Under the pieces are notes generated by a model. The model made no database searches, had not been told where the DNA came from, and saw only the letters and a list, made by a program, of their open reading frames with translations. Below, in pieces: positions 6,681 through 10,270 of a DNA stretch of 64,000 nucleotides (the stretch's first letter is position 1; every line of letters starts with the position of its first letter). The translations under genes and the position numbers were made by a program. Origin of the DNA: Desulfuribacillus stibiiarsenatis (lineage in GTDB: Bacteria; Bacillota; Bacilli; Desulfuribacillales; Desulfuribacillaceae); assembly GCF_001742305.1 (NCBI RefSeq), contig NZ_MJAT01000036.1, positions 1 to 64,000 of the forward strand, in the 5' to 3' direction.

Positions 6681-7676
6681 ATGACATTAATGGGATTAGA
6701 GTTACCTAGTAACATAGAATTTACACAAGAAGATGATAAACATATTAGAATGCATATTGAAAAGCCAATGGAAAATATGCAGAATGATAGTGCTGCTTTC
6801 GAAGCATGGGCTTTGTGTTTAAAGGCAAAAATGAATTGCAACATTATTCTAAGTTACCAAGAATATAATTGCTGGGATAAATCTTTCTACAAACTATGTT
6901 GTAAACAAACACATTACATGAGATTTTTGTATAGGTTATGGAAGTTTAGTGAACTGATGAGTGAATGGTTTAAAATAGATGTTAAATGCATAGCAGATGT
7001 AGAACAATTTAAAAGGATGTTTTTAGAATTAAAAGCAAATAGACAATATATTAATAATACTCCAATAAATGAAAGTGAAACTAGTAAATCTAATGAACAT
7101 AGAGATGAACATTTTGTTGAAAAAGCTTTTATAACTGCAGTTGGCAAAGAGAAACTGAATCAACTATTGGCTGAAGAAAAAGAGAGTAAATTAAAAATTA
7201 TTAATAACCAACTGCCAAACGGACTATTTAAAGGAAAGTTGGTAGGGGATATAAAAGAACTTAACAGGATATTCCCTACAGGGTTTATTGATTTATGGGG
7301 CATTAGTGAAAAAGATGATCTATGCATATTTGAACTAAAGATTGACAGTAATAATCATGTAGGTATAATTTCACAATTGTTTTTCTATGCAAATTATTGC
7401 AAAGATGTTTTCTATGATAAAGTATATAACGACAGAATACAGAGCTATAAGAGAGGATATAAAGAACTACATAATACTGTGAAAAGTGGCATTGTAAGCA
7501 TTAAAGCGTATTTTCTAGCACCGGGATATCATAAAGAAATTAATGTGAATAGAAACAGAATAGAAGAGATTCTTAATCAAAAGAAAGATATTACCAAAAT
7601 AGAGTACAAATTTCTTGATTATGACTACGAATCGATAAAGGAAATAGTAGATACTAGTGTAAAAATTAAATTGTAA
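6681..7676 (+). CDS. unrecognised protein with a possible PD-(D/E)XK nuclease core
   Basis: 331 aa; I do not recognise the family. The C-terminal half contains GFIDLWGI (residues about 200-207), then CIFELKID (about 214-221), then an ISQLFFYA helix. This D, E-x-K, helix-Q order is typical of PD-(D/E)XK endonucleases and related restriction or repair enzymes. The N-terminal 150 residues show no motif I can name. No membrane segment or signal peptide is visible. The start ATG at 6681 has only a weak GGGAG ribosome-binding site about 10 bases upstream. It is AT-rich and lysine-rich, unlike the flanking housekeeping genes, which suits an accessory gene. It lies 148 bp after the AddA-like gene, so co-transcription is uncertain. 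Confidence 0.55.
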   Translation: MTLMGLELPSNIEFTQEDDKHIRMHIEKPMENMQNDSAAFEAWALCLKAKMNCNIILSYQEYNCWDKSFYKLCCKQTHYMRFLYRLWKFSELMSEWFKIDVKCIADVEQFKRMFLELKANRQYINNTPINESETSKSNEHRDEHFVEKAFITAVGKEKLNQLLAEEKESKLKIINNQLPNGLFKGKLVGDIKELNRIFPTGFIDLWGISEKDDLCIFELKIDSNNHVGIISQLFFYANYCKDVFYDKVYNDRIQSYKRGYKELHNTVKSGIVSIKAYFLAPGYHKEINVNRNRIEEILNQKKDITKIEYKFLDYDYESIKEIVDTSVKIKL

Positions 7677-7677
7677 A

Positions 7678-7974
7678 TTATTTCATTTTATGAATCTGCT
7701 TTAGCTCTTCCAAAACCAGCATGAATTTTTCGTGACTTTGATGAGTTAACAAGCAATTAAAACCGATATACAGCAAATCTCTCTCAAATGTACTGAGACG
7801 ACTGTTATGAACATTAAGGTTAATAACCATATTAATCATAATATCTTTAACAGATTCTATGCTATATGCTGCATGAATAACAGCGAGTTTAAGTGCAACC
7901 GGCCAATAGGGCTCTATTAGTTCATCAATTATTAATAGACCGTAATCGTTAATGTGTAATGATAAGTCAATCAT
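7678..7974 (-). CDS. orphan 98-aa protein, possibly a nonsense-interrupted gene
   Basis: 98 aa, mostly helical by eye, no motif recognised. The best ribosome-binding site on this strand, AGGAGG at 8005-8010, is six bases from an ATG at 7996-7998 in the same frame. That reading gives MYKNP and then an in-frame TAG at 7981-7983. The next in-frame ATG (7972-7974) opens the 98-aa ORF but has no obvious ribosome-binding site of its own. Either the gene carries a nonsense mutation, or the short peptide is a leader that couples translation to the main ORF. It converges with the nuclease-like gene (1 bp apart) and diverges from the wHTH gene across the palindrome-bearing intergenic region. Confidence 0.45.
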   Translation of the reverse strand: MIDLSLHINDYGLLIIDELIEPYWPVALKLAVIHAAYSIESVKDIMINMVINLNVHNSRLSTFERDLLYIGFNCLLTHQSHEKFMLVLEELKQIHKMK

Positions 7975-8047
7975 GATTTTCTAAGGATTTTTGTACATGA
8001 TGCACCTCCTATTTATTTACAATTATATAGAATGGAAGTTACCAAAG

Positions 8048-8122
8048 AGACAACTGTTTGTCGCAATTCTGTAAGTAGAAAGAATGCAAAAGTGCATTTT
8101 ATCAAGCGACAAACAGTTGTCT
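8048..8122. promoter_or_regulatory. 17-bp inverted repeat made of two palindromic operator-like sites
   Basis: A perfect 17-bp inverted repeat: AGACAACTGTTTGTCGC at 8048-8064 and its reverse complement at 8106-8122. Each arm is itself a palindrome of the form GACAA-N4-TTGTC, with centres 59 bp apart. It lies between the divergent genes at 7974 and 8195. A third, very similar site (GACAC-CTGT-ATGTC) lies at 9440-9453 before the gene ending at 8852. This pattern fits dimeric repressor operators, most simply for the wHTH protein next door. The long arms could also form an RNA hairpin. Confidence 0.55.
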
Positions 8123-8194
8123 TTTTACTATTATATTTTCGTTTAATATAGGTAAATAAGCTAGAGATATGTAAATGGAAGGAGGATAAATAGA

Positions 8195-8695
8195 GTGTTA
8201 TCAAAAACAGCCCGTCAACTTATTATTTATCACGTATTTCGATTTACAAAGAGTGTGAGCATACGAGATATTAGGCTCTATATCTCTATTAAAAATAAGA
8301 CTGCCTATAGAGATATTAAGGACTTAAATAATGCGGGCCTTTTACAGACTATATTCTCTAAGAAAGATCAGTGTTATGTCCATCACAAATCTACCTATGA
8401 TGATAGTGAGCAGTTTTATGATCCCAAATATACTGAAAATCAAGCATATAATCGTCATTTAGATAAACTGCGACGATTAGGAAGAATAATGAATAGATTA
8501 CACTACAATACACTAAGTTATAGTGACTGTCTAAACTGGTACCAAAAGGCATTCCCAGGTGTGAGTACAAGAACGATGCAAAGAGATTTCAAAGAATTGA
8601 CATCTATTGGTTACACCATCATATATGACCGCTTTGAAAAATGTTACTATATTAATTTTCCGCGATTTGAGGATGATATTAGGCAATGGAAATAG
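8195..8695 (+). CDS. wHTH transcription factor resembling the N-terminal part of WYL/DeoR-type regulators
   Basis: 166 aa. Two segments look like winged helix-turn-helix units: residues about 15-50 (SIRDIRLYISIKNKTAYRDI then DLNNAGLL) and about 110-155 (CLNWYQKAFPGVSTRTMQRD then FKELTSIGY). The second matches the helix-turn-helix and wing that precede WYL domains, but the protein stops there with no sensor domain. Start is GTG 8195, nine bases after AAGGAGG. Its location beside the paired palindromes suggests autoregulation and control of the divergent gene. No ligand domain is visible, so any signal must come from another partner. Confidence 0.65.
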   Translation: MLSKTARQLIIYHVFRFTKSVSIRDIRLYISIKNKTAYRDIKDLNNAGLLQTIFSKKDQCYVHHKSTYDDSEQFYDPKYTENQAYNRHLDKLRRLGRIMNRLHYNTLSYSDCLNWYQKAFPGVSTRTMQRDFKELTSIGYTIIYDRFEKCYYINFPRFEDDIRQWK

Positions 8696-8862
8696 TAGAT
8701 CTCCATACTAGTGGCCACGCTAGCATGGAGACTATGGTAAAGATTTCAACAATATGCAAGCCTCAAAATGTTATACCAATTCATACGGAAAGAGCGTACT
8801 TATTCTCTAATATATTTGATAATGTTAGAATAGTAAAAGATGGAGAGGAAGTTAGTAAATAA
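8686..8862 (+). pseudogene. fragment of an MBL-fold exonuclease (RMMBL C-terminal domain)
   Basis: A 58-codon ORF overlapping the end of the wHTH gene by 10 bp. It contains DLHTSGHASMETM and NVIPIHTERAYLF, which are the two conserved blocks of the C-terminal RNA-specificity (RMMBL) domain of beta-CASP metallo-beta-lactamase RNases. The catalytic MBL and beta-CASP domains, several hundred residues in intact family members, are missing. A TAG stands immediately upstream in the same frame. I read it as a deletion remnant, possibly of a gene once linked to the neighbouring island. A translated stand-alone peptide cannot be excluded. Confidence 0.65.
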
Positions 8863-9340
8863 GCTTCTTGAATTTTTCTTGATCTATTATATATTGTTCT
8901 GAGTTTATATAAGTCCACATTTCGAGAACATTGAACAAATCTATGAAGAAATGTTTGTACAAAAGCCAGTAAGGATCACAATAGTGGGACAAACCCAAAC
9001 GTCCTTGATTTTGGTCCAGCTCATACAACATAACACCCACATCATCAATTAAGATACGATTGGGCTCATTATCTATTTCGATATAATATTCAATAAAGCC
9101 TATGATAATACGAAATGGGGTTTGTCTAGTTCTCCAATCTGTAAGGTCAACATCCAGTTTATCGATTTCATCTTTAGACAATGTTTTAATATGACGAATT
9201 AAGCTATGTGAAGCAGTTTTAATAGGTTCTTGAGAGAATAATAAGAATCCATTTTGAATATCCAGTTGATCCCATCTTACAATTTCTATGGTTTCAGTTT
9301 TAAAATATCTTGAATAATCTTCTAGTTTAAAATCATTCAT
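8852..9340 (-). CDS. orphan 162-aa protein, function unknown
   Basis: Not recognised. 162 aa from ATG 9338-9340, preceded by a GGGGG ribosome-binding stretch seven bases away; an ATG at 9367 would add nine residues with poorer context. The protein is acidic and rich in aromatic residues (DWRTRQTPFRI, IEYYIEI, YCDPYWLLYK), soluble by eye. That composition recalls small immunity or orphan accessory proteins, but no family can be named. Its 3' end overlaps the MBL-fold fragment by 11 bp on the opposite strand. A TATAAT on the minus strand lies at 9412-9417 and a palindrome related to those beside the wHTH gene overlaps the expected -35 position. Confidence 0.6.
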   Translation of the reverse strand: MNDFKLEDYSRYFKTETIEIVRWDQLDIQNGFLLFSQEPIKTASHSLIRHIKTLSKDEIDKLDVDLTDWRTRQTPFRIIIGFIEYYIEIDNEPNRILIDDVGVMLYELDQNQGRLGLSHYCDPYWLLYKHFFIDLFNVLEMWTYINSEQYIIDQEKFKKLIY

Positions 9341-9436
9341 TAAAAAACCCCCTAATTTTTTTTGCAAGCTATCCAGTTTTCATTGTTCAGTATTTATGAA
9401 TACTCAATCTAATTATATAAAGCCGAACTAATAGGA

Positions 9437-9455
9437 AGAGACACCTGTATGTCGG
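9437..9455. promoter_or_regulatory. third copy of the GACA...TGTC palindrome
   Basis: AGAGACACCTGTATGTCGG matches 16 of 19 positions of the site at 8046-8064. It lies about 100 bp upstream of the minus-strand gene starting at 9340. It is 20 to 35 bp upstream of that gene's candidate -10 (TATAAT at 9412-9417, read on the minus strand), so a bound protein would cover the -35. Confidence 0.5.
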
Positions 9456-9774
9456 CAAGCATCGCAATGATTTTTTTGGATTGAAAAAATGATTTCTTAT
9501 AAGATTGAAATCAAAAACTGACGATTGGCAGTTTCTTTGAATAGAAGTTGCTTAAGATTTGCAAAACCGGTTATAATAAACGCCGCGTCTTTGGCAAGAT
9601 TCATTACATGAATGATGCAAATACATTTTGTGAGGGAATAGGTAGATAGGGGCACTGACAGCCAAGATGGCTGCTAGAATTGTTGTGTGGTATCTGGAGC
9701 AGAATGTAGATGCGCAGATTGTATTTATATGGTAAAATAAGTTTAGTTTATTAATGAAAGGAGAATTGATCGAT

Positions 9775-10035
9775 ATGACTCTAGCTAAGAAAATCGAGAA
9801 TATTCTTAAAGATGAATTAAAGCCAGAGGATGTAAAAACGATTGTTGATATGGCTGAGTTTCTGAAATATAAGAGTTCACTGGCAAAGTGGGATAAAATA
9901 AATGAATCGGAGCCGGAGTATATAACTGAAGATGAAAAAAATGAAATTGACAAGAAAAAGGCATCTGGTGACTACGTATCACAAAAGCAATTACTAAAAG
10001 AACTTGGAATATCTGAAGATGAAATACACCGTTAA
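9775..10035 (+). CDS. type II antitoxin, RelB/DUF2281-like
   Basis: 86 aa from ATG 9775, about 11 bases after AAAGGAG; the in-frame ATG at 9754 lies before that ribosome-binding site and is less likely. The protein is small, charged and helical (KKIENILKDEL, VDMAEFLKYKS) with a flexible acidic middle and a C-terminal LLKELGISEDE, as in antitoxins that wrap around RelE toxins. It overlaps the toxin gene by 17 bp, the usual coupling of such pairs. It would neutralise the toxin and probably repress the operon. Confidence 0.7.
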   Translation: MTLAKKIENILKDELKPEDVKTIVDMAEFLKYKSSLAKWDKINESEPEYITEDEKNEIDKKKASGDYVSQKQLLKELGISEDEIHR

Positions 10036-10270
10036 ATATCAAAAGGATTGTATTAAATATCTGAAGAAGTTAGACAAACTCATGCAGATTAGAATTATTA
10101 AGGCCATAAATCAACTACCTGATGGCGATGTAAAACTATTAAAGAATTGTAAGGATGATTATAGGTTAAGAGTAGGTATCCAGAGGATTATATTTAACAA
10201 AGATGATGATAAAAAGGAAATCTATATTATAAAGATTTCCCCTCGCGGAGAAGTATATAAGCGATTATAG
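10019..10270 (+). CDS. RelE/ParE-family toxin
   Basis: 83 aa from ATG 10019 inside the antitoxin end. It shows the compact RelE/ParE pattern: KYTVKYQKDCIKYLKKLDK at the N-terminus, a helix, then DDYRLRVGIQRIIF and a C-terminal EIYIIKISPRGEVYKRL. Conserved Arg in YRLRVG and the R/Y-containing end match ribosome-dependent mRNA interferases of this superfamily. Whether it cleaves mRNA (RelE) or poisons gyrase (ParE) cannot be told from the sequence. A strong terminator follows. Confidence 0.8.
   Translation: MKYTVKYQKDCIKYLKKLDKLMQIRIIKAINQLPDGDVKLLKNCKDDYRLRVGIQRIIFNKDDDKKEIYIIKISPRGEVYKRL

Follow-up and report, generated by a model that had tools for sequence, protein, structure and literature searches.

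The arrangement of this locus in Desulfuribacillus stibiiarsenatis raises the question of whether three copies of a short palindrome, clustered around a gene for a winged helix-turn-helix (wHTH) protein, are operators of a common regulator and, if so, which protein reads them and to what effect. They lie in a window, i.e. the whole stretch of DNA analysed, of 64,000 nucleotides, for which a sequence-only reading had proposed a self-contained switch comprising one regulator and two orphan targets. It is likely, on the evidence considered below, that the copies form part of an autoregulated local switch, in which a 166-aa protein would read CGACAWACAGKTGTCT at three promoters. This is the best reading of the locus, being backed by the orientation of the sites, their 34-36 nt spacing and a composite promoter that is unique in the genome; the binder and the sign of its effect are what we infer.

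All three copies are present where they had been noted. The first (S1, 8049-8062, minus strand) serves a 98-aa ORF (7678-7974, minus strand), which is divergent from the wHTH gene (8195-8695, plus strand) and was absent from the earlier proposal; the second (S2, 8108-8121, plus strand) serves the wHTH gene itself; the third (S3, 9440-9453, minus strand) serves the gene behind it, encoding a 162-aa orphan protein (8852-9340, minus strand). Read towards their own genes, S1 (an exact match) and S2 have the sequence GACAAACAGTTGTC and S3 has GACATACAGGTGTC, all three copies thus conforming to CGACAWACAGKTGTCT in the same orientation. The site is a 16-bp asymmetric near-palindrome with the gene-forward layout CGACA-W-ACAG-K-TGTCT, the asymmetry residing in the ACAG core.

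Within the 64-kb window the pattern GACAN6TGTC is matched by S1, S2 and S3 only, and the genome scan that had been proposed along with the switch found exact GACAMCTGTWTGTC at these same three sites and nowhere else in 3,117,468 bases, all within 1.4 kb, compared with about 0.08 occurrences expected by chance. By contrast, degenerate matches are at chance level genome-wide, with 60 at up to two mismatches (three exact and three with one mismatch) versus 60 for a reversed control pattern. Half of these (30 of 60) were inspected individually, loci on the minus strand being left unturned, so that for these the gene-forward and other readings are exchanged. Among the 27 non-exact matches inspected, one (L008) has TATAAT at +32, inside a 342-codon stop-free stretch; another (L004, one mismatch), which is probably intergenic since the longest stop-free stretch spanning it is 30 codons, has TATAAT 29 nt from where the site begins, short of the 34-36 nt seen at the three promoters. 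When the region 7678-9560 was subjected to dinucleotide shuffling (n=1000), 992 shuffles had no 14-mer within two mismatches of S1 and eight had one, so that none reached the three of the real sequence (S1, as the reference, counted in). The exact 14-mer GACAAACAGTTGTC was not found in the literature searched; the bare 16-mer operator has eight matches in viral contigs.

Each site is followed by a predicted -10 hexamer at a nearly constant distance, counted from the G of GACA to the start of the hexamer. For P1 (TATAAT, 8022-8027, minus strand) the distance from S1 is 35 nt; for P2 (TTTAAT, 8142-8147, plus strand) and P3 (TATAAT, 9412-9417, minus strand) the distances from S2 and S3 are 34 and 36 nt, respectively. 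The composite GACAN6TGTC-N19-23-TWTAAT matches the genome three times, at P1, P2 and P3 (reversed control, two matches), and viral contigs not at all; with up to three mismatches, in two separate searches at N20 and N21, the sole extra match is at C4:8506 (L057, the same locus as L018), where the site is within a 674-codon stop-free stretch. TWTAAT occurs at +34 to +36 from about 1% of positions in the region, a figure that serves as a guide only, the hexamer pattern having been picked post hoc. That three exact sites in 3.12 Mb fall within 1.4 kb, with the composite at these promoters, speaks for a local switch.

None of the three promoters has a recognisable -35 element at a spacing of 16-18 bp; the hexamers at this distance from the TWTAAT -10 elements have only 1-2 of 6 consensus matches. 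A sigma-70 scan does not list any of P1-P3 as drawn here, since their -35 elements are below its threshold, and its total for the region (17) is near the mean for shuffled sequence (12.4). The third site had been described as overlapping the expected -35 element of its gene; at a 17-bp spacing there is an overlap of about one base, but S3 abuts that position and contains no -35 element, and it is better said that the operator stands in for an absent -35.

A shared site in a fixed orientation, at a near-fixed distance from the -10 element and replacing the -35, is the arrangement expected for an activator making contact with RNA polymerase, and in classical class II activator promoters, of the CAP/FNR type, the site is centred near -41.5. 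If transcription is taken to begin 13 nt downstream of the first base of each -10 hexamer, i.e. at predicted rather than mapped positions, the operator centres are predicted from the sequence at -41.5 (P1), -40.5 (P2) and -42.5 (P3). On these predicted starts the arrangement, with a site centre near -41.5 beside a missing -35, would resemble that of class II promoters; the protein families are unrelated. On the favoured reading, the 166-aa protein, which has tandem winged helices, would bind at its own promoter, at the promoter of the divergent 98-aa gene and at the one driving the 162-aa gene; when bound near -41 it would contact RNA polymerase and activate transcription. Within the switch model the protein is probably an activator, because of the common orientation, the nearly constant -10 distance and the site in place of the -35, with repression nearly as likely.

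The alternative that survives best is simple repression by the wHTH protein: the operator would overlie a weak -35 element (TTGTCT/GTGTCT), and the regulator would silence its own gene and the two adjacent ones until a signal is received or the protein is lost. This has an appreciable chance of being correct, though one well short of even; it restates the repressing share of the switch model, and the two are not mutually exclusive. The 3' half of the operator is TTGTCT in P1 and P2, with 4 of 6 matches to TTGACA, and lies 18 nt from TATATA, if this is taken as the -10 element of P1, and 19 nt from the TTTAAT of P2; as a weak -35 it would account for the constant spacing with no activator involved. 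Against repression, the spacers would be long (18-21 nt), P3 has GTGTCT only, and a common orientation of an asymmetric site would not be required. There is a precedent in BrxR, a WYL-family repressor of defence islands, which, according to its description (PMC9122601), represses itself via inverted repeats at few sites, its box having 11-bp arms with a 5-bp gap and lying between the promoter and the gene. The present locus is similar to this in its putative autoregulation via inverted repeats at few sites in an island; it differs in that the BrxR box is downstream of the promoter and mediates repression, and in that a WYL domain is lacking here.

It is rather unlikely that the sites are read not by the wHTH protein but by a host regulator or an alternative sigma factor. 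A fixed -10 distance would also suit an alternative sigma factor, and TACAGGTGT in S3 fits one half of the published NiaR operator of Streptococcus pneumoniae (PMC5343564). The other operator half is missing, however, and S1 and S2 carry TTGTC instead of GTGTC, making NiaR an unlikely reader; the genome has no additional exact or composite match.

The close pair S1 and S2 could alternatively represent an RNA hairpin, a terminator or the terminal repeats of a mobile element, an explanation that we regard as improbable. The two copies do constitute an inverted repeat, perfect over 17 bp (8048-8064 with 8106-8122), as had been claimed, which extends to 21 bp at 95% and has arms 41 nt apart. The resulting 83-nt repeat (8044-8126) folds strongly (z -7.55 on the plus strand and -6.53 on the minus strand) and has TTTTT at its end on the plus strand; it might terminate transcripts reading through from the left. 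The repeat is, however, upstream of both predicted starts, so that neither transcript would contain the hairpin, and a terminator role would account at most for the paired copies, leaving the third unexplained; the hairpin is most readily viewed as a side effect of having two operators in opposite orientation. A MITE, or a mobile element bounded by terminal inverted repeats, is unlikely, given that the exact site is found at one genome locus only and that no target duplication flanks 8044-8126. Viral contigs have nothing with the paired-site pattern. Its match at one place in the genome_contigs collection, in a Phycisphaeraceae MAG (L034), was rejected as a GC-rich chance hairpin, no related gene being seen there. 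Finally, that the copies are chance occurrences, or scattered repeats unrelated to promoters, is scarcely credible, since although degenerate matches occur at the control frequency (60 versus 60), the exact sites and composite promoters are at this locus only and three near-matches arose in none of the 1000 shuffles.

The presumed regulator, i.e. the 166-aa protein, starts at a GTG behind AGGAGG. No other DNA-binding protein was recognised between the sites, which makes the 166-aa protein the candidate binder of the operators. Pfam HTH_11 (3.5e-07) and a PADLOC model for WYL regulators (2e-07, best over residues 4-49) each match it in two stretches, indicating the presence of a DNA-binding domain of the WYL-type winged-helix class. 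These two stretches occupy the 166 residues; a C-terminal WYL sensor domain was not detected with Pfam at E up to 1, and no sensor domain of any kind was found. An asymmetric operator core in a common orientation would suit a single chain with two different winged helices. The gene for the regulator carries the same operator as its putative targets, and the genome contains no further exact copy.

Among 151 genomes (relatives and own) the 166-aa protein occurs in its own genome only, and it has no match in plasmids, phages or viral contigs. In the phylum there are matches in 10 of 398 genomes at E up to 0.01, the own genome included. The strongest of the others (G210, 23% identity, 4.7e-6) was rejected as an orthologue, as was G334 (21% identity), both frames having internal stops; the other seven were rejected in that they cover about one HTH only. 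GACAN6TGTC is present at just two of these nine loci (L036, at 2936, and L039, at 50), in each case over 1 kb away from the part that matched.

Two activators of the WYL family are among the nearest comparisons. In the account of DriD from Caulobacter (PMC12340889), likewise a wHTH protein, the pseudo-palindromic sites are at one fixed distance from the -10 element, the -35 elements are poor, and a site is also present at DriD's own gene. To this extent the present locus, with sites at a nearly fixed distance, poor -35 elements and a site at the regulator's own gene, is similar, whereas the 166-aa protein has two wHTH domains per chain with no WYL domain found; furthermore, the DriD site is described there as centred on the -35, while the present sites abut the -35 from upstream and are nearer the classical class II position. 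PafBC, from actinobacteria, is described (PMC6789036) as having two HTH domains per functional unit (PafB plus PafC), which are sometimes naturally fused, and as recognising the promoter motif RecA-NDp. The presence of two HTH domains in one unit is shared with the protein studied here; the WYL and WCX domains that the same source reports for PafBC are absent from it. We tentatively propose, as a doubtful but specific form of the activator model, a sensor-less single-chain activator built from two different winged helices of the WYL type, which would bind the asymmetric near-palindrome, always facing the same way, where a -35 would otherwise lie; the result would be a minimal switch with positive feedback, inducing two small island proteins that have no match.

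Neither the 98-aa nor the 162-aa protein has a significant match in Pfam, NCBIfam, PHROGs or PADLOC, and the two have no likeness to each other. Both occur only in their own genome among the 151, and in none of the plasmids, phages or viral contigs searched. Within the 398 phylum genomes, own included, the 98-aa protein has matches in three, the two others being marginal, and the 162-aa protein in two, the other (G208) covering 41 residues with one stop. Searches of PDB sequences yielded nothing useful, and the AlphaFold models are poor (mean pLDDT 34.2 and 44.5). For all three ORFs the own frame is the best of six by codon usage, the z values of 2.6, 1.1 and 2.7 giving weak support. No convincing relative of any of the three proteins was found in the collections searched. 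The 162-aa ORF is drawn from an ATG at 9340 behind AGGGGG, a longer form from a TTG at 9367 being possible. Upstream of the 98-aa ORF (7972-7998, minus strand) there is a good Shine-Dalgarno sequence with an ATG at 7998, followed after five codons by an in-frame TAG (MYKNP*KIM), such that translation would need to restart at 7974 without a Shine-Dalgarno sequence of its own; this start reflects either reinitiation after a very short leader peptide or a nonsense mutation of recent origin.

The region from 6.5 to 10.5 kb has a GC content of 0.29-0.33 in 1-kb windows, compared with about 0.40 in both flanks, a difference that fits acquisition of the region as an island; in the sister genome, addA is too diverged to reveal synteny with this island. 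A probable toxin-antitoxin pair of the RelE/ParE type (9754-10270, plus strand) adjoins the switch, comprising an 88-aa frame matching a PHROG RelE-like toxin (7.9e-17) and, preceding it, a 93-aa frame; no operator copy is present in front of the pair. On the other side, downstream of addB/addA-like genes, a 331-aa protein (6681-7676, plus strand) has weak similarity to the C-terminal domain of the NucS nuclease (E 0.062) and to a PADLOC candidate defence model (5.6e-4). Elsewhere in the window, a T-box leader (Rfam RF00230; 52090-52350, plus strand) precedes a gene for a class I aminoacyl-tRNA synthetase of the I/L/M/V group.

The proposed switch is ordinary in kind; its presumed regulator and two targets are unmatched in the collections searched. 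It would offer a compact case of a private regulon governed by a tandem winged-helix protein that lacks a sensor domain, and its three promoters are a natural comparison set. If activation is correct, the 166-aa protein would represent a compact equivalent of activators of the PafBC and DriD types, consisting of the DNA-binding part on its own, and the locus may be a positive-feedback switch controlling uncharacterised island genes.
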